A DNA stretch of 64,000 nt from Hyphomicrobiales bacterium (GCA_021775425.1 JAJFHX010000008.1:1-64000), one strand, 5' to 3'. Counted from the stretch's first letter, positions 14,363 through 49,052 are shown. The notes: generated from the sequence alone by a model not told the origin. Made by a program: numbers and translations.

Positions 14363-15721
14363 CTATTTTCGTTCCGTAATTTTGAACGGCAGGCCGCCTT
14401 TTGGTGTCAGTGTGACGGTGGCGTTAAGCTGGATCGGATCGCCAATATATTCCGGCTGAAACCGTTTGAGAAGTGTTGGCAGCGCCAGGCAGATTTCCAG
14501 AAATGAGAATTGCCCGCCAATGCAGGAGCGTTTGCCAGCGCCAAAGGGAAGGTAGCTGTATTTAACGCGGCGCTTCATTCTGTCTGGTGAGAAACGATCC
14601 GGGTCGAATTTTTCGGGGTCGTTCCAGTATTTTGAACTGTGATGCGCGGCATAGGTGCACATCACCATTTTATCACCGGCTTTAATTTCGTGTCCTTCAA
14701 TGACATCATCTTCCTCTGCCACACGAATAAGGGCCCAGATGGGTGGGAACATGCGCAGAGTTTCCTGAGCGACATTTTTGGTATAGGTCAGCTTCTGGAT
14801 GTCTTCGATGGTCGGGTCTCTGTCTCCATAGACTTCTTCTGCTTCGGCGAGAATTTTCTCTCTTATTTCTTCATGCTGGGAAGCGATGTAGAAGGTCCAT
14901 GCCAGTGTGAGGGCGGTGGTTTCTGTACCGGCCCAGAGATATTGTTTCAGTTCGTCAATGACTTGTTTTTCATTGAATTCAGGGATGTCTTCATTTTCTT
15001 TGGCATTGAGCAGCAGGCTCATCAGGGTCTGTTCGCGGGTGGTGAGCGGGTCTTCACCCAATACCATTTCAGGAACTGACCACCAGGTTTCAACTGCTTT
15101 TGCCGGATCGACTTCTGAGATGTCTTTCAGCTCACCTGACTGACGGCCAAGGCGAATTGATTTATGGCTTGAGACATCAGTGTAGGTTTTTACGGCTTTG
15201 AACACGAAGTGCGGATTAAATGGCATTTTACGGTCAAACAGGGCGCGGCAAACCATATCAGCAGCCAGGGTCCAGGTTTCTTCAACCATTTCTATGGTTT
15301 CACCAGAACTGGCGAGTTCTGAGAAGCGGTCACATTTGGCGTTGATGGCCTCAACCAGAAACGGGAAATATTCGTCAAACGCTTTTGGGTGAAAGGCCGG
15401 TTGCTGTGGCGTGCGGATGTTTTGCCACAAGGCGCCGTCAACCGTGATCATTGAATCGCCGAAAATGGGCCGGATGCCATCAAAATATTTGGTGTAATTG
15501 TCACTGTTGGTAACCAGAACCCTGCGAAAATGTTCGACATCGCTCATGAACCAGAGTTTCTGGCCTTTCAGGTTGATGGGAATAACGCCACCATATTTTT
15601 CACACATATGCATGACCACCTGCATGGGGTTTTTACCCTTGAGGAGGGGTGTTAGCTTGAACCAGATGCTTTGTTCTTCGCCCAGGTCATGTGACTGTTT
15701 CTGCACGTCCGCTACGGCCAT
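14363..15721 (-). CDS. Cytochrome P450 (CYP4/CYP102-like group)
   Basis: A 452-residue soluble P450. The heme loop FGAGKRSCIGG gives Cys400 as the thiolate ligand. The I-helix AGTETT (264-269) carries the acid-Thr pair for oxygen activation, and ETLR (320-323) is the K-helix ExxR. The sequence resembles the fatty-acid/alkane type more than the short CYP153 or CYP107 types, but substrate is inference. No ferredoxin or reductase gene is adjacent. GAGGT sits four bases upstream of the ATG. A putative FNR-like site lies about 240 bp upstream. Confidence 0.92.
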   Translation of the reverse strand: MAVADVQKQSHDLGEEQSIWFKLTPLLKGKNPMQVVMHMCEKYGGVIPINLKGQKLWFMSDVEHFRRVLVTNSDNYTKYFDGIRPIFGDSMITVDGALWQNIRTPQQPAFHPKAFDEYFPFLVEAINAKCDRFSELASSGETIEMVEETWTLAADMVCRALFDRKMPFNPHFVFKAVKTYTDVSSHKSIRLGRQSGELKDISEVDPAKAVETWWSVPEMVLGEDPLTTREQTLMSLLLNAKENEDIPEFNEKQVIDELKQYLWAGTETTALTLAWTFYIASQHEEIREKILAEAEEVYGDRDPTIEDIQKLTYTKNVAQETLRMFPPIWALIRVAEEDDVIEGHEIKAGDKMVMCTYAAHHSSKYWNDPEKFDPDRFSPDRMKRRVKYSYLPFGAGKRSCIGGQFSFLEICLALPTLLKRFQPEYIGDPIQLNATVTLTPKGGLPFKITERK

Positions 15722-38559: not shown

Positions 38560-38954
38560 GTCATTAGTCCTTATATATCAAGTTTAAAATCTGGTTTTAT
38601 TAAAGGGTCGATGATTGTTTTGAGCGTCCTCTAAACGTTTGACCTTGAATTTGTTTGGCTTTGAATTGCCTCACATGAAGGTTACGCGGTGGCCTGAAAA
38701 AAATTCTCAGAAACATTAAAAAAATTTAATTTTTCTTTTTTTATTTTTCTCGGCCAAAAAATTCCTGACCTTTGAAATTCTTTGTCACTTTATATATAGG
38801 CCTTAATCTGGGTTGGATTTGGGCCGATATAGAATGAATGTCCGAGGGGTTATACTTAGATTGAAAATAAACCTGCTGATCGGAGAATTTTTTTGTGGCT
38901 GGTGCGTAACCTTTTTAGAAGAACATTAATGAACTCGAAGCCGTTGGATTGAAT
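38560..38954. other. Intergenic region upstream of the ECF sigma gene
   Basis: About 395 bp, very AT-rich in 38700-38760. It separates the divergent TPR-protein and sigma-factor genes. ECF genes are usually autoregulated, so a sigma-specific promoter is expected here, but without a second target I cannot fix its motif. No ORF or stable hairpin stands out. Confidence 0.4.
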
Positions 38955-39545
38955 ATGGTTTGCACTGCCCTTCAAATGGATTACCTTAAGCCTGAGTTGG
39001 CTTTTGCCAGGGGCGTGGTTTTAACGGGTGTTGAGGAACCAGTGACGATACCAGATCAGTTCAGAGCGGATATCCTGTTGCTGTTGCCTCGTTTGCGGCG
39101 GTTTGCCTTTTCGCTGACACGGTCTGGACCGGATGCGGATGACCTGTTGCAGGATGCCTGTATATCGGCTCTCGCAAACTGGCAGCAATATGACGCGGCA
39201 CAGCCTTTCGACCGGTGGATGTTTAGAATTGTTCGGAACAGCTGGATCAGTGAAATCAGAAAACGCAAGGTGCGGCTTGGTGAAGGTAATGTGCCAGCGG
39301 AAGATGCGAGTGAACTGCAAACTGAACAGGTGGCAGACGTTTCCCTTGAAGTGAAAGATGTGATGGGGGAAGTTGCTCATTTGCCTCAGGAATTATCCCA
39401 GCCATTATTGCTGGTTTGTGCTGAAGGGTACAGCTATCAGGAGACGGCAGACTTACTTGATGTGCCGAAGGGCACTGTAATGAGCCGGATCCACCGGGCG
39501 CGGAAACTGCTTATGGTTCAACTTAAAGAAGAGAAAGGGGCTTAG
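38955..39545 (+). CDS. ECF-type RNA polymerase sigma factor
   Basis: 196 residues. Region 2 is seen in PRLRRFAFSLTRSGPDADDL, LQDACISALANWQQY and FDRWMFRIVRNSWISEIRK. Region 4 is in VCAEGYSYQETADLLDVPKG, TVMSRIHRARKLL, the HTH that reads the -35 element. An extra 30 or so residues precede region 2. The following gene encodes a membrane anti-sigma factor directly after the stop, so this is a signal-responsive pair. Confidence 0.92.
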   Translation: MVCTALQMDYLKPELAFARGVVLTGVEEPVTIPDQFRADILLLLPRLRRFAFSLTRSGPDADDLLQDACISALANWQQYDAAQPFDRWMFRIVRNSWISEIRKRKVRLGEGNVPAEDASELQTEQVADVSLEVKDVMGEVAHLPQELSQPLLLVCAEGYSYQETADLLDVPKGTVMSRIHRARKLLMVQLKEEKGA

Positions 39546-39547
39546 TG

Positions 39548-40468
39548 ATGACTGACATTTCTGTAAAATTAAGCGCCTATCTTGATGGGGAGCTGGATGA
39601 AGATGAAGCGCGCCTTATTGAGGCTCAGCTTGCAGATGACCCATTGTTACAGCAAGAGCTGGATGAGCTTGTGGAAGCTAACTCGATTGCGCTTTTAAGT
39701 TTTGAGAATATGCTACACGAGCCAATTGAACTTTCTGTGGCTCAATCGATTAAGACGGCAGATGAAACGGATGCCATTCCGGATTTTGAAGCAGATGTGA
39801 CAGCTAACGAGCGTAAAGTAATTGATGGGGTTTTTGACCAGCCTTCTGTTAAGCGTCAGAGGGATGCTGATCAACAGCAGCTGGCGGTGAGATCACCGCT
39901 CTGGCGTTCAATGGCGGCGAGTTTGATTTTATTTTTGCTAGGCGGTGCCGGTGGTTACACGCTGCATAAGGAGATGTTTGCTGGCGGGGCTCCTGTTGAG
40001 ATTGCGGCTGTTGAAAAAAGGGGTTGGCTGAAAGAGATTGCTGATTACCATGCTGTTTATTCAACAGAAGAGCGGCACCTTGTTGAAGTGCGCGGTGATA
40101 AGAAAGAGCATCTGACTAACTGGCTTGTGAAAAAAACCGGCGCATCATTTCAGGTGCCTGACCTGAGTGGTCTTGGTTATGTTTTTGAAGGCGGACGGTT
40201 GCTGGTTGCTGATGGGCGTCCGGTTGCTCAGCTGATATACAGAGATAAAGACGCGACTGTGGTGGCGCTTTGTATTCAGAAAATGCCTGCTGGTATGTTT
40301 AGCGATAAATCTAAAGATCAGATTGGTGCGGCTGATATGAAGAAAAACACCATTAAAGATTTTGACTTTTTCTCCTGGGCTTCCGGGGCGGTACATTATG
40401 TTGTGGTTGGACCGAATGGAAAAACCGAGCTTGAGAAAATTGCACTTGAGGCGGCGCGACATATATAA
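39548..40468 (+). CDS. Transmembrane anti-sigma factor
   Basis: 306 residues. The N-terminal SAYLDGELDEDEARLIEAQL is the typical sigma-binding helical start of anti-sigma factors without the zinc HxxxCxxC. One membrane segment lies at about 121-138 (SMAASLILFLLGGAGGYTL). The periplasmic part is about 165 residues. The ATG follows the sigma stop by two bases. The exterior domain should sense the signal that frees the sigma factor; the signal is unknown. A TCTGAG/CTCAGA hairpin follows the gene at 40471-40488. Confidence 0.85.
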   Translation: MTDISVKLSAYLDGELDEDEARLIEAQLADDPLLQQELDELVEANSIALLSFENMLHEPIELSVAQSIKTADETDAIPDFEADVTANERKVIDGVFDQPSVKRQRDADQQQLAVRSPLWRSMAASLILFLLGGAGGYTLHKEMFAGGAPVEIAAVEKRGWLKEIADYHAVYSTEERHLVEVRGDKKEHLTNWLVKKTGASFQVPDLSGLGYVFEGGRLLVADGRPVAQLIYRDKDATVVALCIQKMPAGMFSDKSKDQIGAADMKKNTIKDFDFFSWASGAVHYVVVGPNGKTELEKIALEAARHI

Positions 40469-40621
40469 ATTCTGAGCTTTCACTCAGATTATTGTTACAA
40501 GAAAATTTCTATTCTTAATCAAAAATTAAACGGTGTCCCGTTATAGATCACATGTTCGTGAGTTTCTCCCCGTTGGGTGATGTTGCTTTTGTTGTGTCGA
40601 TTTGTATAGGGGTATGTTGCG

Positions 40622-42007
40622 TTGCTTTTATCAAGGCGTCAGTTTTTGTCCGGCTGTTCCAGTGTTGCGCTTGCCTCTCTTGGGGGCTGTGCTGGGAACT
40701 TTGGAAGCCAGCATTCTTATCTTACCAATATTGTTGCTCCCTCAAACGTTGATGAAGTTTTTCACTGGACGGATGTTGCCTTGCAGGCACTCCGGGACCA
40801 GTTGATTGCGCCGCCGATGGCATCACGGGCGATGGCGATGGGCCATGTGGCGGGCTTTCTTGCTGTTAATGGTATTGAGAAAAAATATGAAAACAGCTAT
40901 TCGATCGGTCCGGCGCCGCTAGGGGCTGACCCGGCTGTGGCATATGGTGTTGCTTCGGCAACGGCTTTTGCTGAACACTTGCAACAACCACTTTTATTCG
41001 ATCAGATGAGTTTTCTTTCACGCTATCCGGCTGGTGAGGCGAAAACTCTTGGTGAGGCCTGGGGCCGGAAAGTTGGTGATTTTGTTGTTCGTATGCGCAC
41101 GAATGACGGGGCAGAACCGAGCAAAGCCAATTATTATTTAAGACGCTACCCGCGCCGGCAGGATTCTTTGCGCTGGCGACCAACGGGGCCTTTGTTTGAT
41201 TCTGGTGCGACGGAACCTTCGTTTAGAGAAAGCTACCACCGTGGGTTATTGCCGGGCTTTGGGCAGGTGAAACCATGGGCGATTTCTTCTGCGTCTCAAT
41301 ATATTGCGAGTGATTTTTATGACCCGGCCAGCCCGGAGTTTGCACGTGAATATGAGATGGTTAAGGAGCTTGGGTCTTCTGACAGTGCCAGCCGGACTGA
41401 TGACCAGACTGAGATTGCGTTTTTCTGGGAAGACGGACCGTGGGGTGTCACGCCGCCGGGGCATTTTTCACTGATTGCAATGCAGTTGTTTCAGCATTTA
41501 AACCTTTCAAGAGTCGATAAAGCGCGGGCGATGGCACTGGTGAGTATGGCTATGGCCGATTCAGCGATTGCGACATGGCACTCGAAATACAGCCATGACA
41601 TTATTCGTCCTGAAACGGCGATCAGATACCGTGCTGCGCAATTTGGTAATGCTGACCCACGCGTTGCTAGCAGGCGGGACTGGAAATCGCTGATCCCGAC
41701 ACCGCCATTTCCTTCTTATACGTCCGGACACTCAGCTTTTGGTGCCTCTGGCGCGAGGATTATTGCGCATATTATCGGGCGTGACCGGGTGAGTTTTTCC
41801 AAGAAAGCTTCGGATACTGTGATCTGGCCGGATCATCTTTCAGGTGTGACGCGGCACTGGAACAGCCTTTCTGAAGCGGCTGCCGAAAATGGCATGAGCC
41901 GGATTTATGGCGGTGTGCATTGGATGCGTGACAATGTTGAAGCGTTGCGCGCCGGGCGAGAGATTGCCGACCATGTGATTAAAACCAAGTTTCGGAGAGC
42001 GGTCTGA
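40622..42007 (+). CDS. Vanadium-dependent haloperoxidase-like (PAP2 superfamily) Tat lipoprotein
   Basis: 461 residues from a TTG with AGGGG nine bases upstream. The twin-arginine motif SRRQFL at residues 4-9 and the lipobox-like SLGGC suggest folded export and lipidation. The vanadate/phosphate site is complete: K322-x6-R329-P (KYSHDIIRP), S368-G369-H370 in PSYTSGH, and R427-x5-H433-x3-D437 (RIYGGVHWMRD). Such proteins are haloperoxidases or acid phosphatases; the long form and KxxxxxxRP spacing fit the V-haloperoxidase-like group. It overlaps the next gene by one base. Halide specificity cannot be read. Confidence 0.85.
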   Translation: MLLSRRQFLSGCSSVALASLGGCAGNFGSQHSYLTNIVAPSNVDEVFHWTDVALQALRDQLIAPPMASRAMAMGHVAGFLAVNGIEKKYENSYSIGPAPLGADPAVAYGVASATAFAEHLQQPLLFDQMSFLSRYPAGEAKTLGEAWGRKVGDFVVRMRTNDGAEPSKANYYLRRYPRRQDSLRWRPTGPLFDSGATEPSFRESYHRGLLPGFGQVKPWAISSASQYIASDFYDPASPEFAREYEMVKELGSSDSASRTDDQTEIAFFWEDGPWGVTPPGHFSLIAMQLFQHLNLSRVDKARAMALVSMAMADSAIATWHSKYSHDIIRPETAIRYRAAQFGNADPRVASRRDWKSLIPTPPFPSYTSGHSAFGASGARIIAHIIGRDRVSFSKKASDTVIWPDHLSGVTRHWNSLSEAAAENGMSRIYGGVHWMRDNVEALRAGREIADHVIKTKFRRAV

Positions 42008-43077
42008 TGTTTTTTCAAGTTAGTAACAAAGTATTGAAAAATAACTCTTCCAGTTTGTTTCGATATTTCGTTGGTTGTTCACTGGTCAGTTTATTGAGCT
42101 TTATGCCATCCCAACTGGTGAGCGCGCAGCAGGCTTTTGCCCAGAATGGCGGACTGAACCCCGATAATCTTTCATTCTTTGAAGAGCCGCTGGCGTTTGA
42201 ATTATTTGGTGCGACGGTGAGTTATAATCATCTGTTTGATCTGCCGGTGGTGCATAATTTTAAAACGGATAAAACTGACCTTGAGCCGAAGTCCAACTTC
42301 AGGGTGAATATTGAGCGGCAATTACCGAACTCATTGACGATTGGTGCGACTTATTTTGGCTCTTATGATGAGCGTGAGCAGGACGAGTATGATGACCGCT
42401 GGGAAGTATATGCGCAGAGCATCTGGGGGCGCCTTGCTGTTGGTGAAGTCAATGAAGGGGTGAGAGAGACCACCCGCAGATGGCGCGGCACGGGCAATGC
42501 TGATCTGGAATTTGATGATGTTCTGGCGACGCTTGAAGAAGAAGATAACGGTTTTTTCTATAATATCAGGCTTTCGGCATTTATTTTAAGTGCCGGTGTG
42601 GATGAGCATGGCAACAGTGACTTTGGCTTAACTTATGAGCGGCCGAATAAATATACTGATATACGCTTTTCTGGCCGGTTTACGAATTCTGAAATCAGAT
42701 CGCTGGATGGTGGCACTTTGTTTGAGACCTATGCAGGCGGACTTGTGGGTCAGGTTGAGTATGGCAGTCTGGCGCTTGATCTTGGAGTTGGTGTTGAGCA
42801 TTTTGACAGTGCTCGGGCTAGTGGAACGCGTAGTTATATTTCAGCCGGTGCGCATTATAAGGTCAGGCGGCTGACATTATCTGCTGAGGCCCATTGGGGT
42901 GAAACTGACGGGCATGAAGAAAAAAGCGTTGCGCTTGGGGCAAGATATGATCTGGCGCGGGGTTTATCTGTCAATTTGGGATATAATTATGCCAAATCTG
43001 ATGCGGCGATAGATGGGATTGTGCTGCAGAATGTTGAGAAGTCAGAATTTATAACGTCTTTACGTTATGAGTATTGA
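42007..43077 (+). CDS. Outer-membrane beta-barrel (porin-like) protein
   Basis: 356 residues with a signal region (VGCSLVSLLSFMPSQLVSAQ). Alternating amphipathic strands follow, such as FRVNIERQLPNSLTIGATYF, SLALDLGVGVEHFDSAR and GLSVNLGYNYAKSD, ending in SLRYEY. It has the look of a Gram-negative porin of about 14-16 strands, though I cannot name the family. The ATG shares one base with the haloperoxidase-like stop (TGATG), so the two are translationally coupled and probably function together in the envelope. Confidence 0.75.
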   Translation: MFFQVSNKVLKNNSSSLFRYFVGCSLVSLLSFMPSQLVSAQQAFAQNGGLNPDNLSFFEEPLAFELFGATVSYNHLFDLPVVHNFKTDKTDLEPKSNFRVNIERQLPNSLTIGATYFGSYDEREQDEYDDRWEVYAQSIWGRLAVGEVNEGVRETTRRWRGTGNADLEFDDVLATLEEEDNGFFYNIRLSAFILSAGVDEHGNSDFGLTYERPNKYTDIRFSGRFTNSEIRSLDGGTLFETYAGGLVGQVEYGSLALDLGVGVEHFDSARASGTRSYISAGAHYKVRRLTLSAEAHWGETDGHEEKSVALGARYDLARGLSVNLGYNYAKSDAAIDGIVLQNVEKSEFITSLRYEY

Positions 43078-43174
43078 TCGGTTTATTCAATTTCCCGCCA
43101 CAAATTTATGACTTTTTCGTTTTCTACTATGAGGGATGTTTTGGTTTGATTCTTTTTTAAAGGAAATGCCGGAT

Positions 43175-44404
43175 ATGCTGACAAAAGTTGAAAACATTCA
43201 TAAATTTGACCTTTCGGGGCAGGCTTTTAAGCGTGATCCTTTTCCAACCTTTCAGGCCATGCAGGAGAAGGGCGTTTTTGTAAAATCAAAAATGCCACTG
43301 ATTGGTGAGGTAACTTATGTGACCCGCCAATCTGCTGCCAAAGCTCTTTTGAAACGCAGTGATCTTTTTTCGGTCGATTTTGGCCGGGTGAAGGGCTCTT
43401 TTTTGTTGCATATGCTGACCAGAATGCCGGGCCTGCGCCCGCTTATGGATAATATGATGCAAAATGATGACCCTAAGCACCGGCGTTTAAGAAAGCTGGT
43501 TGACGGGGTGTTCAGGCGGCAGGAAATTCAAAAATTAGTACCAAAAATAGAAATTATTGCGAACCAGTTATTTGATAATTTCATACATTCAGATGATAAA
43601 GATGTGGTGCGCCATATTGCGCGGGATTTGCCGCTTGCGGTAATTTGTGAGTTGCTTGGATTGCCGCAGCGGGACCGGCCAAAATTTACAAGCTGGATGA
43701 GGTATGTGGCTGAAGATCATTCTTTAACCGGGATGATGAGTTTATTGCCCTCTGTCTGGCGGATTAACAACTATCTGAAACTCAAGTTTGAAGAGCGCTG
43801 CCTTGAACCACGGGATGATTTGATATCTGACCTTGTGAATGCGGAAGAAGATGGTGACCGGCTTAGTGAAGATGAACTGCTGGCGATGTGTTTTCTATTG
43901 TTTGTGGCTGGGCATGAGACGACGGCGCATCTGATTAGTGGTGGCGTGCTTTCGCTTATAGAAAACCCGGAACAACTTGAGCTGCTGCGCCAGAAGCCAG
44001 ATTTAATGCCACTGGCTGTTGATGAATTGCTGCGGTTTGTTTGCCCTGTGCAGATGTCGAAACCAAGATATCCGATAGAAGATTGTGAGTTTGAGGGGGT
44101 GCGGTTGAAAAAAGGTGAGCCGGTACTGGCGCTGCTCGCTTCAGCCAATATTGACCCGGATGAATTTGATACCCCTTTGGAGCTGAATGTCGGGCGGGAG
44201 CATAACCCGCATCTGGCACTTGGTGGTGGCCCGCATTTTTGCCTTGGCGCGTGGCTGGCGAAAAGTGAGATGGAAATTATGTTGAAGTGTATTTTAGAAA
44301 GGCTGCCAGTCCTGGCACTGGCCTGCCAATCAAAGGACCTTCATTGGACCAGCCGCACGGGGTTGCGGGCGCTCAGGTCTTTACCGCTCAGCATTAAAAA
44401 CTGA
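43175..44404 (+). CDS. Cytochrome P450 (bacterial class I type)
   Basis: 409 residues from the ATG at 43175, which has AGGA ten bases upstream; an ATG at 43136 would add 13 residues with a poorly spaced site. The heme loop LGGGPHFCLGAWLAK gives the Cys ligand at about 356. The I-helix FVAGHETTAHL and ExxR in AVDELLRFVCPV are present. The form fits the soluble CYP107/CYP109-like group that uses ferredoxin partners. No redox partner is adjacent. It starts about 100 bp after the porin-like gene, on the same strand, and may be part of the same unit. Confidence 0.93.
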   Translation: MLTKVENIHKFDLSGQAFKRDPFPTFQAMQEKGVFVKSKMPLIGEVTYVTRQSAAKALLKRSDLFSVDFGRVKGSFLLHMLTRMPGLRPLMDNMMQNDDPKHRRLRKLVDGVFRRQEIQKLVPKIEIIANQLFDNFIHSDDKDVVRHIARDLPLAVICELLGLPQRDRPKFTSWMRYVAEDHSLTGMMSLLPSVWRINNYLKLKFEERCLEPRDDLISDLVNAEEDGDRLSEDELLAMCFLLFVAGHETTAHLISGGVLSLIENPEQLELLRQKPDLMPLAVDELLRFVCPVQMSKPRYPIEDCEFEGVRLKKGEPVLALLASANIDPDEFDTPLELNVGREHNPHLALGGGPHFCLGAWLAKSEMEIMLKCILERLPVLALACQSKDLHWTSRTGLRALRSLPLSIKN

Positions 44405-44422: not shown

Positions 44423-47400
44423 TTATCCGGCTTCGGAGATGGGTGATTTTGCATTGGCGAGTTCTTTTTCGAGCTGATCACCTGCTTCGCTGCGTGGTTT
44501 GCTGACACCCGCGATCAACATATAAAGTGCCGGGGTTAAAAACAGCGTGAAGATGCCGGCCATGCCAAGGCCGCCAAACACGACCCAGCCAATGGCTGCT
44601 CTTGATTCTGAACCGGGGCCTGCGCCTAGAATGAGTGGTAGACCGGCGAGGATGGTTGAGAGCATTGTCATCATGATGGGGCGGAGGCGCACACGTGATG
44701 CTTCTTGCGCTGCCTGATAGACACTTCGTCCGTGTTCTCTTAACTGGTCAGCAAACTCAACCATCAGGATGGAGTTTTTCGCCATGATGCCGATCAGCAT
44801 CAGGATGCCGATCTGGCTGTAGATGTTAATAGATGTGCCAGTGAGCGCAAGGGCAAAGATTGCGGCGCAGATGCCGAAGGGGACTGTCAGAAGAACAATG
44901 ATCGCGCTGGCGGCGCTTTCAAACTGCGCTGTCAGCACTAGGAACACGACGAGGATGGCGATGAAGAATGTTATGGTTGAGCCATCTGAGGTTTCGTTTA
45001 ATGCTTCGGCTTCATCCAGCAATAAAAGAGATGTGCCCGGTTTGAGTACTTTTTCAGCGACATTTTCAATGGCTGTGACGGCTTCTCTTAATGTGAAGCC
45101 TTCAGCCGGGTCGGCGGATATTTCAATGGCTCTGCGCTGGCCGTGTCGATCAAGCTCAGCGGCGACGGCATATTCACGGAATTTGACCAACTGTGATAAA
45201 GGCACCATCTGGCCGGAACCGGCGCGGACGTAAAGGTTTTTAATATCTGTTGGTGAGGTGACATCACCCGGGCGGGCTTCCAGAATGACGGGTACGATCT
45301 TATCGTTAACGGTCAGTTCTGCAACTTCGTCATTATCAACAAGGACTTTCACGGTTGTTGCCAGTTCTTCAATTGAAACACCGATGTCAGCTGCCTGACG
45401 GCGATCAATATCTACCGAAAGCTGGGGTTGTGTTGCCCTGAATTCCACGCGGAAATTGGAAAGTTTTGGTATGTCGGTTTCCATTGTGCGAACGAATTCT
45501 TCGGCGGTGACCGCAAGCTGGTTATAGTCCGGGCCAACGATGGCAAACTTTAAGCCACCATCTGCGCCTCTCAGGCCAAGGCTGTTGCCACGAACGGCGC
45601 GCACCTGTGAGCCTGGTATCTGACTTAAAGGTTTTTTGATTTCACCGATGATCTGGCCTTCTGATTTTGTTCGTTTGGACCAGTCGGCTAATGGGGCTTC
45701 AATGGAACCGCGGTTTGGATCCCAGCGGCCAGAGACAGAGAAAATATTTGTGATAATGCCCTGGTCCTGATAGCTGTGCAGAATTTTTTCAACTTCTTCA
45801 ACCTGACGGTCTGCATAGTCAATTCCTGTGCCATCCGGGCCAACGAGGCGAATTTTAATCAACCCGCGATCTTCTTCGGGGACGAGTTCTTCACCAAGGG
45901 TTGAGTAAACAATGGCGCCGCTGGCGGCTACTATAAAGCAGATTCCGATCAGAACCAGAGGCGCTGCCAGTACTTTATTCAGCAACCAGACATAAACATT
46001 TTGTAGCCCGCCGCCAATTTTGTTCAACATACCCATCAAGAGGCTTTCTCTTGTTTTTTCGGGTGTCGGGAGGCTGGCGGCCATCATCGGACAGATTGAA
46101 AGGGCGACAAAAGATGAGATGACGACTGTGATCGCAAGTACAAAGCCGAATTCGGTAAACAGCCGGCCTGCTGTTGAGGGCAGGAATGAAATCGGCAAAA
46201 AGACTGAAATAAGCGTCGCAGTTGTTGCGATAATGGCGAAGAAGACCTGCCTTGCACCCAGTACTGATGCGGCTTTTCCGGGGATGCCCTGGGCTCTTAA
46301 CCTTTGAATGTTTTCAAGCACCACGATGGCGTCATCGACAACTAGGCCGGTGGCCAATACGAGGGCCAGCAGCGTGACGAGGTTGATTGAAAATCCAAGC
46401 ATCCAGATCGCGGCTATGGTGCCGGTTAAAGCGATTGGTATGGCAACTGCTGGGATTAACGCGGCGCGCCACTGGCCAATGAAGAGGGCAATGACGGCGA
46501 CAACAATAATCACAGCTAATATGAGACTGATCAGGACTTCATAGATTGCGCCTTCAATGAAGATTGCGTCGTTTGAAATGATGTTGATAGTGGCATCATC
46601 TGACTGCTTGTTAATTTTGCTGATGAGCTTTTTCACGTCCTGCGAAATGGAGATGGTGTTGGATTCTGCTTGTCGGACGATGCCCATATTAATCACTGTC
46701 CGGCCATTGAGGCGGGTGTAATTTTCCGCTTCTGCCGGGCCAAAGGAAGCTGAGGCGACGTCGCTGATACGGACCGGGTCTCGAAGGATAAGATCCTCGA
46801 CCTGTTTTGGTGAGGTGACAGAGGCGTTGGCACGCACAATGACCTCCTGATCACCGGATTTGAAACTGCCGGCGGGAACATCAAAACGGGCGGTTTTGAG
46901 AACGTTGACAACATCTGCGACCGTGAGCTGGTAACTGGCCATTTTCAACGGATTGAGAATGACACGTAGTACCCTTTGCCTGTCACCATTGAGATTGACA
47001 TCTGCGACCCCTGTAACGGAGGTCAGTTCCGGTACGATTTCATCTTCAACGCGGCGGGTTAGCTCATCAATTGAGAGGGTGTCACTGTGGATGGCGAGCT
47101 GGATGATTGGGCTGGCATCAGCGTCAGCTTTAATGACGAATATGTCTTCAACCCCTTCGGGGAGCTCTCTTTCTACCCGGCTGACGGCTTCGCGGATGTC
47201 ATTTGCAGCGTCAATCAGATTAACTTCAGGGTTGAACTCGGCGCGGATACGCAGGTTGTTTTCTTCACTGGAGGAGCGCACGGCTTTCACGCCATTGACC
47301 CTTGCGACAGCGGCTTCGATGACGCTGGTGATTTCTGCGTCGATTGTTTCTGGTGAGCCACCGGGGTAATTGGCGCGCACGGTCACGATGGGTCGGTCAA

Positions 47401-47551
47401 TATCGGGAAGTTCGCGGACTTCGACGCCGAAGATGGCGCCAAGACCGGCTATGATGATCAGCAGATTGATGACAATCACCAGATAGGGGCGACGAACGCT
47501 TAATGCGGGAAGGTCATCCGTTTTAACTGACTTTGTTTCCGCTTCTGCCAT
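44423..47551 (-). CDS. RND efflux transporter permease (HAE-1 type)
   Basis: 1042 residues, twelve membrane segments, two large periplasmic loops, typical of AcrB/MexF-like pumps. The proton-relay Asp pair is in LATGLVVDDAIVVLENIQR (TM4). VRANYPGGSPETIDAEITSVIEAA and the late LIGIMAKNSILMVEFADQLR are characteristic. Homology is nearer to the VexF/MdtC-like short RND group than to classic AcrB, but the drug range is unknown. It follows the adaptor gene by 15 bp in one operon; no outer-membrane channel gene is adjacent. Confidence 0.94.
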   Translation of the reverse strand: MAEAETKSVKTDDLPALSVRRPYLVIVINLLIIIAGLGAIFGVEVRELPDIDRPIVTVRANYPGGSPETIDAEITSVIEAAVARVNGVKAVRSSSEENNLRIRAEFNPEVNLIDAANDIREAVSRVERELPEGVEDIFVIKADADASPIIQLAIHSDTLSIDELTRRVEDEIVPELTSVTGVADVNLNGDRQRVLRVILNPLKMASYQLTVADVVNVLKTARFDVPAGSFKSGDQEVIVRANASVTSPKQVEDLILRDPVRISDVASASFGPAEAENYTRLNGRTVINMGIVRQAESNTISISQDVKKLISKINKQSDDATINIISNDAIFIEGAIYEVLISLILAVIIVVAVIALFIGQWRAALIPAVAIPIALTGTIAAIWMLGFSINLVTLLALVLATGLVVDDAIVVLENIQRLRAQGIPGKAASVLGARQVFFAIIATTATLISVFLPISFLPSTAGRLFTEFGFVLAITVVISSFVALSICPMMAASLPTPEKTRESLLMGMLNKIGGGLQNVYVWLLNKVLAAPLVLIGICFIVAASGAIVYSTLGEELVPEEDRGLIKIRLVGPDGTGIDYADRQVEEVEKILHSYQDQGIITNIFSVSGRWDPNRGSIEAPLADWSKRTKSEGQIIGEIKKPLSQIPGSQVRAVRGNSLGLRGADGGLKFAIVGPDYNQLAVTAEEFVRTMETDIPKLSNFRVEFRATQPQLSVDIDRRQAADIGVSIEELATTVKVLVDNDEVAELTVNDKIVPVILEARPGDVTSPTDIKNLYVRAGSGQMVPLSQLVKFREYAVAAELDRHGQRRAIEISADPAEGFTLREAVTAIENVAEKVLKPGTSLLLLDEAEALNETSDGSTITFFIAILVVFLVLTAQFESAASAIIVLLTVPFGICAAIFALALTGTSINIYSQIGILMLIGIMAKNSILMVEFADQLREHGRSVYQAAQEASRVRLRPIMMTMLSTILAGLPLILGAGPGSESRAAIGWVVFGGLGMAGIFTLFLTPALYMLIAGVSKPRSEAGDQLEKELANAKSPISEAG

Positions 47552-47566
47552 TTTGAGTTACTCGCT

Positions 47567-48688
47567 CTAATTGCTGAGGCTGGTAGTCGAAAGAGGTGGT
47601 TCTATAAAGGAGACTTTTGAGCCTTCTCTTAATCGCTGTACGCCTTCAACGACGACCAGATCACCTTTTGAAAGTTTGCCATCAATGATGATGGTGCTAT
47701 TCAGGCGTCTGACAATGCGGACAGGGATTTTTTCTGCCTGCCCTTTGGAAACTTTCCAGACATGGCTTTTGCCTTTTGACCACAGTAAGGCCAGCTCTGG
47801 CACCAGCGGGTAGGTTTTGCCTTTCAAGCGGACTTCTGTGGTGAATGACATGCCAGGTCTTAACAGATCTTCTTTATTATCGAGAACGGCGCGCACTGTG
47901 ACTGAGCGGTTTTGCGGGTCGATGCGGCTGTCGATCTGATCGATTATTCCTGTGAAAGTTTTTTGCTCATAGTTCGGGGTACGCGCATAAATTTTATCGC
48001 CTGCCTTCACGCGCGAGAGAAACAGCTCGGGGACTCTGAATTCAACGATAATTTCTGAGCGATCATCCAATGTCATAAGGGCGGTTGTTGTGGTGACGCG
48101 GTCACCTGCTTCAACTTTTGGGATGCCGATGATGCCGTTAAAAGGAGCGATAACACGTCTGTCTCTTAAGGCTTCTTCAGCTTGTCTCAGTTCTATTTCG
48201 GCTCTTTTCATGAGGTTTTGAGCGTCATCAACATTAGCGGCTGAATTGATGTTCTTTTTGCGCAGCTCTTTGGCGCGCACCATGAGCCGTTCGGATTCGA
48301 TTAATTTCGTTTCGGCGACTCTTTTGGCGAGTTCGGCTGTTTTCGGGTCAAGCTCCAGGAGGATGTCACCCTGCTGGACCTTTGTTCCGGTTTCAACATT
48401 AAACTTTGTGATTTCGCCGTTGGTTTCAGGATAAAGGGTGATGAATTTTTTTGCCCGGCCTGTGCCGAGGGCTTCAATAATTTCGTTATTTGCGGCGCTG
48501 GAAACGCGTTTGACCACAACAGGTAATTCCTGACTGCGTTTGGACTTTATGGGTTCCTGTTCACCTGTTGGGGCGATGCGGGCAAAGACATCACTTAGGT
48601 GGTCTTTATATTGCCACAGGAAAACTGAGGCCAGAATCGACGCACTTAGAAAAATAAGCTGTAAGACTAATGATATAGTCCGTTTCAT
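47567..48688 (-). CDS. RND efflux periplasmic adaptor (membrane fusion protein)
   Basis: 373 residues from the ATG at 48688, with GGAG seven bases upstream. A signal/anchor (ISLVLQLIFLSASILASVFL) is followed by a lipoyl half-motif (LYPETNGEITKFNVETGTKV), a helical hairpin (VAETKLIESERLMVRAKELR), a second lipoyl half (IAPFNGIIGIPKVEAGDRV), beta-barrel and membrane-proximal domains. It bridges the pump and an outer-membrane channel. It is the first gene of the two-gene operon. Confidence 0.92.
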   Translation of the reverse strand: MKRTISLVLQLIFLSASILASVFLWQYKDHLSDVFARIAPTGEQEPIKSKRSQELPVVVKRVSSAANNEIIEALGTGRAKKFITLYPETNGEITKFNVETGTKVQQGDILLELDPKTAELAKRVAETKLIESERLMVRAKELRKKNINSAANVDDAQNLMKRAEIELRQAEEALRDRRVIAPFNGIIGIPKVEAGDRVTTTTALMTLDDRSEIIVEFRVPELFLSRVKAGDKIYARTPNYEQKTFTGIIDQIDSRIDPQNRSVTVRAVLDNKEDLLRPGMSFTTEVRLKGKTYPLVPELALLWSKGKSHVWKVSKGQAEKIPVRIVRRLNSTIIIDGKLSKGDLVVVEGVQRLREGSKVSFIEPPLSTTSLSN

Positions 48689-49052
48689 TTGATCGCTCCG
48701 CAAACATTACAAATAAAGCGCTATTGTTATAATACAGGAATAAAGATGATTTATGTCTCTTACCTACATTTGCACCGCTATGTGGCTGCTATAACTCAGA
48801 ATAAACGGGATATTATACCAGCCGGTAATTTACTCCACTTAATACGAGGTTAAAAGTAAATATCCGTCGCGAATAATATGGTTTATTTTTCTGCAAGAAT
48901 TTTGCCATGTGTGTTTTCAGCATTTATCGTTAAAAAGAATAACAAATACAAGTTGTTAAATTGATAATCGGATCTTTTTATTTGTATCCGTAGCTGTCTG
49001 GCTGCTGCCGGTTTATGCAGTACCTTGGATCTGAGAGATATTTTTAGGCCAG
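48689..49052. other. Intergenic region between RND adaptor and GntR genes
   Basis: About 360 bp. On the minus strand it is the 3' side of the GntR gene and the promoter side of the RND operon. A weak CGGAT/ATCCG hairpin lies around 48968-48990. No strong terminator or regulator gene for the pump is visible. Confidence 0.4.

Follow-up and report, generated by a model that had tools for sequence, protein, structure and literature searches.

The described enzyme with a solved structure that comes closest to the haloperoxidase-like protein considered here is the vanadium iodoperoxidase of Zobellia galactanivorans (PDB 4cit/4usz), which is similar to it over nearly its full length (4cit being the best PDB sequence match with a single-sequence E of 1e-23 and a profile E of 6e-34; fold E 2e-12), has the same ligand spacing and the motifs PPFPxYTSGHS and SRxYGGxH in common with it, and is about 23% identical to it when the structures are aligned. 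In this comparison, which on the Zobellia side was made by protein alone, the present family is distinguished by a Tat/lipobox leader and a coupled gene for a predicted porin. The vanadium chloroperoxidase of Curvularia inaequalis has residues (K353, R360, S402-G403-H404, R490, H496, W350 and F397) with equivalents in our enzyme, although the latter is shorter, has weaker overall similarity and is of the bacterial lipoprotein type with regard to export. The plasmid-encoded vanadium-dependent haloperoxidases of Phaeobacter are likewise alphaproteobacterial and belong to the same superfamily (about 25% identity), but the gene next to the Phaeobacter haloperoxidase gene (L110 5980-8457) codes for a hydrophobic, DoxX-like membrane protein and not for a barrel; no literature on the Phaeobacter enzyme with iodide was found. 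Haloperoxidase-like domains are also carried by larger proteins, including an Ig-like-domain protein of about 2,900 aa on a Rhizobium etli plasmid (L111 2695-11430); further plasmids of Rhizobium and of Nostoc have similar matches within multi-domain proteins, and one genome (G195) contains a tandem pair of haloperoxidase-like genes (L035 7208-10568).

The protein encoded by the following gene shares its predicted fold and an inward segment resembling loop L3 with V. cholerae OmpT, the R. blastica porin and Omp32. Unlike the general 16-strand porins, it has a motif of its own and its strong matches are always found by a haloperoxidase gene, while no sequence match to solved porins was detected, even by profile.

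The window, i.e. the whole stretch of DNA analysed, comprises 64,000 nucleotides from a Hyphomicrobiales bacterium (GCA_021775425.1, JAJFHX010000008.1:1-64000). The five genes which the original prediction had placed at 38955-44404 are all present there as ORFs on the + strand, each supported by a Pfam match: Sigma70_r2/r4 (E 4e-16 and 6e-14), zf-HC2 for the anti-sigma factor (5e-6), PAP2 (8e-10), Porin_4 (1e-8) and p450 (2e-28). The P450 gene ends 19 bases from a convergent gene (Table 1).

Table 1 Features of the locus, with positions counted from the first nucleotide of the window
Feature	Position	Strand	Remarks
ECF sigma factor	38949-39545	+	Pfam Sigma70_r2/r4; neighbour, outside the conserved pair
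Membrane anti-sigma factor	39545-40468	+	zf-HC2-type N-terminus, one hydrophobic segment; neighbour only
Hairpin TCTGAG-CTTTCA-CTCAGA	40471-40488	+	Just 3' of the anti-sigma stop; possible weak terminator
Vanadium-haloperoxidase-like protein, 461 aa	40622-42007	+	PAP2, TTG start; core of the conserved pair
Stop/start overlap TGATG	42005-42009	+	Enzyme TGA shares one base with barrel ATG
Predicted 16-strand porin (barrel), 356 aa	42007-43077	+	Porin_4; core of the conserved pair
Cytochrome P450, soluble bacterial, CYP107-like	43136-44404	+	p450; neighbour only
RND efflux pump	44423-48703		Convergent to the P450 gene

The conserved haloperoxidase-barrel pair

In every one of the 11 alphaproteobacterial genomes in which they were detected, namely that of the window and ten others (G001, G006 and G043; G305, G370, G418, G438, G531, G579 and G980), the haloperoxidase and barrel genes adjoin each other and have the same orientation. 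G001 and G006 are carriers from the window's own family, which consists of one genus with 8 genomes, and G043 is a carrier from another family of the order. Strong matches to the barrel and to the enzyme fall into the same four genomes of the order sample and into the same seven, the window's included, of the 289 genomes of the class sample, the latter having a probability of about 3e-14 if the two genes were independent, a figure that overstates the case since the genomes are related. The larger class sample added G980, where the genes are paired as well, and the phylum sample of 398 genomes yielded no strong member beyond the window's own. Every strong barrel match adjoins a haloperoxidase gene, and no barrels of this kind were found beside other alphaproteobacterial haloperoxidases. 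The weak barrel matches in G495 and G412 were rejected as members: the flanking sequence retrieved for them contains no haloperoxidase gene, and they resemble distant porins. Searches of plasmids returned no barrel and only distant relatives of the enzyme, and no enzyme was found in viral contigs. In G006 (L006 1562-2987) the barrel gene is intact and the frame of the enzyme gene is broken, which may reflect either decay or an assembly error in this fragmented genome of 550 contigs.

The barrel start is located -1 to +4 nt from the enzyme stop in each of the 10 junctions read, and the TGATG overlap in the window suggests translational coupling of the two genes, so that, together with the adjacency in 11 of 11 genomes, the coupled envelope pair of the original prediction is supported. 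The pairwise identities of the enzyme and the barrel correlate with r = 0.92 over nine genomes, a value which overstates co-evolution since such pairwise values are phylogenetically non-independent.

Predicted functions of the two proteins

The AlphaFold model of the barrel has a porin fold (pLDDT 80.5), the nearest solved structures being V. cholerae OmpT (E 7e-12), followed by the R. blastica porin and other 16-strand porins, from which the strand number of 16 is borrowed. The Porin_4 score is above the cut-off, and the features of a general porin are all represented, including a predicted 16-strand barrel, an inward constriction loop, a signal peptide and a C-terminal aromatic residue; all barrel members listed end in Y or F, as is usual for outer-membrane proteins. 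The best conserved stretch is ExTRRxRGxGN..L at residues 154-167 (E154-x-T-R-R-x-R-G-x-G-N-x-x-L167), which is situated in a long segment between two strands (147-181), at the position that the constriction loop L3 occupies in general porins. The conserved arginines might hint at anion selectivity, which is only a guess because the segment contains acidic residues besides the basic ones.

The enzyme begins with MLLSRRQFLSGCSSVALASLGGC, which includes the twin-arginine motif SRRQFL and the lipobox LGGC, i.e. the twin-arginine, lipoprotein-type leader that had been claimed for it; the twin-arginine motif is present in nine of the nine members listed, the lipobox being weak in some of them (AGGC, TAGC). 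The statement that every vanadate-site residue is kept proved correct too, with K322, R329, S368-G369-H370, R427 and H433 all in place and spaced as in vanadium haloperoxidases (K and R 7 apart, SGH, R and H 6 apart). The other eight full-length members listed have the same ligands, and these, as well as W319 and F363, are kept in every member that covers them.

PAP2 acid phosphatases carry the same vanadate-site residues as vanadium haloperoxidases, and for this reason the ligand residues alone are not proof of a haloperoxidase. The main rival explanation is therefore a phosphatase-porin unit, likened to an anion porin that cooperates with a phosphatase in the periplasm, in which a PAP2-fold lipoprotein would hydrolyse periplasmic phosphate esters and the porin would take up phosphate or phosphate esters. 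Apart from the common site residues, such a unit is consistent with PAP2 being the best Pfam match of the enzyme and with the arginine-rich motif in the presumed constriction of the barrel. It is at odds with the full-length sequence relatives, since all 12 PDB sequence matches are vanadium haloperoxidases or homologues so named and acid phosphatases are missing from them, as well as with the fold neighbours of the enzyme model, which, at a low mean pLDDT of 62.7, has haloperoxidase chains at ranks 1-10 (E <= 3e-6) and acid phosphatases only from an E of about 0.08. In addition, W319 and F363 align with VCPO W350 and F397 in pairwise alignments. The score of the enzyme for the Pfam domain VCPO_2nd is just under the cut-off (26.8 against 27 bits), the domain being matched by 10 of 10 members at E <= 0.01, and no NCBIfam match was obtained. 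Neither sequence nor fold gave a class A acid phosphatase or PAP2 phosphatase as the closest relative. Overall similarity, in full-length sequence and predicted fold, supports separating the enzyme from the PAP2 phosphatases and placing it with the vanadium haloperoxidases, and the phosphatase-porin unit is accordingly disfavoured and considered unlikely.

The sigma factor, anti-sigma factor and P450 genes

The sigma factor has regions 2 and 4 and is followed by a membrane-anchored anti-sigma factor in the next gene, as is the case for an ECF pair, the two genes overlapping by one base (39545). The zf-HC2-type N-terminus of the anti-sigma factor (39545-39700) contains no cysteines and is therefore not the usual HxxxCxxC zinc-binding anti-sigma domain. 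The P450 gene is on the same strand, as predicted, whereas the sequence does not reveal whether it belongs to class I, as had also been stated; neither a ferredoxin gene nor a reductase gene was seen beside it. A second cytochrome P450 with a higher score is encoded on the - strand of the window (14366-15721), and these two are the only P450 matches in the genome.

The original prediction had joined all five genes into a single system. When the same order was sought in ten other alphaproteobacterial genomes, only the haloperoxidase and the barrel recurred: none of the other loci scanned had a counterpart of the sigma factor, the anti-sigma factor or the P450 next to the pair, and a conserved five-gene system was rejected on that ground. 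The remaining neighbours of the pair vary between the lineages examined. The same evidence bears on the proposal of one sigma-controlled operon of five genes, in which the ECF factor would induce haloperoxidase, porin and P450 together for halogenation or oxidation in the envelope. The shared strand of all the genes, the gap of only 58 nt without a clear terminator between the barrel and P450 genes, and another ECF-type system preceding the pair in G001 would fit with it. Besides the lack of linkage elsewhere, it is contradicted by the closest P450 in the genus, which is a lone gene in G003, a genome without the pair, and by the 153-nt gap between the anti-sigma and haloperoxidase genes, which includes the hairpin (39 nt, z -2.9). 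This hairpin may separate the sigma operon from the pair as a possible weak terminator, and the approximately 130 bases from it to the enzyme gene are probably the enzyme's own promoter region. The GGAAC/CGT-type ECF promoter has a single match in the window, far off and fewer than expected by chance, and a looser pattern gave none upstream of the sigma factor, haloperoxidase or P450 genes, although the motif searched may not be that of this sigma factor. Neither conserved linkage nor a shared promoter motif thus points to a regulon of this sigma factor, the promoter half of this argument being the weak one as GGAAC/CGT is perhaps not its motif. A single operon of all five genes is, on balance, quite improbable.

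In G001 (L005 6405-13564) the pair is located downstream of a FecI/FecR/STN-TonB-receptor set on the same strand and faces a haem-uptake-like locus on the opposite strand. The FecI-type sigma factor is of a different type, and its position before the pair could be a coincidence. Another ECF system preceding the pair in that genome leaves room for ECF control in general; control by the neighbouring sigma factor in the window is a bare possibility.

It is less probable still that the haloperoxidase and the P450, in a halogenating tailoring step, modify one secondary metabolite that the barrel exports, given that no biosynthetic core gene is apparent among the window's ORFs, that the P450 is unlinked to the pair elsewhere and that the neighbourhoods of the pair vary among the lineages examined, even though the solved structures nearest to the P450 are the polyketide P450s PksS and PikC and there are natural-product pathways in which bacterial haloperoxidases can work in a site-specific manner (PMC8407465). 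According to the best reading, the conserved unit does not include the sigma pair and the P450, which would have come to lie next to it by chance or through local recruitment.

A proposed two-gene envelope module

We consider it probable, with a likelihood of roughly 60%, that the two genes form a dedicated haloperoxidase-porin unit of the cell envelope, the sigma pair and the P450 gene being outside it. The cell-surface halogenation or oxidative system originally envisaged would thus survive as an envelope pair of haloperoxidase and porin and lose its sigma-linked P450 part. More tentatively, at somewhat below even odds, the pair may be an undescribed enzyme-pore unit, a self-contained bicistronic alphaproteobacterial cassette in which a lipid-anchored vanadium haloperoxidase has its own outer-membrane porin feeding it halide or peroxide or venting the hypohalous product.

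Both proteins are placed in the envelope because of the Tat motif, the lipobox and the predicted outer-membrane pore encoded by the same message. The first gene would produce a vanadium haloperoxidase which the Tat system exports in folded form and which a lipid anchor holds in the periplasm, most probably on the inner side of the outer membrane, and the second would produce, from the same message and by termination-reinitiation, a dedicated outer-membrane porin with the conserved arginine motif carried by its constriction loop. Judging from this anatomy, the porin would let halide, plus hydrogen peroxide or a small anionic substrate, into the periplasm, where the vanadate enzyme would use hydrogen peroxide to oxidise the halide, most likely iodide or bromide, to hypohalous acid. 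The latter may halogenate or oxidise organic compounds of the envelope or ones that are exported or incoming, or the system may merely consume peroxide.

Vanadium haloperoxidases, porins, ECF pairs and P450s are all of known kinds, and it is the strict haloperoxidase-porin pairing that appears to be new, no description of it having been found in the papers searched, among which subscription journals were mostly missing. To our knowledge, the role of non-biosynthetic vanadium haloperoxidases in free-living bacteria is poorly known. Since the conserved unit consists of two genes and not five, the pair is the right target for experiments. A strict pair of enzyme and porin would show in concrete and testable form how halide might be oxidised within the Gram-negative envelope, and it may have a bearing on the cycling of iodine and bromine, on defence against peroxide and on the quenching of chemical signals.
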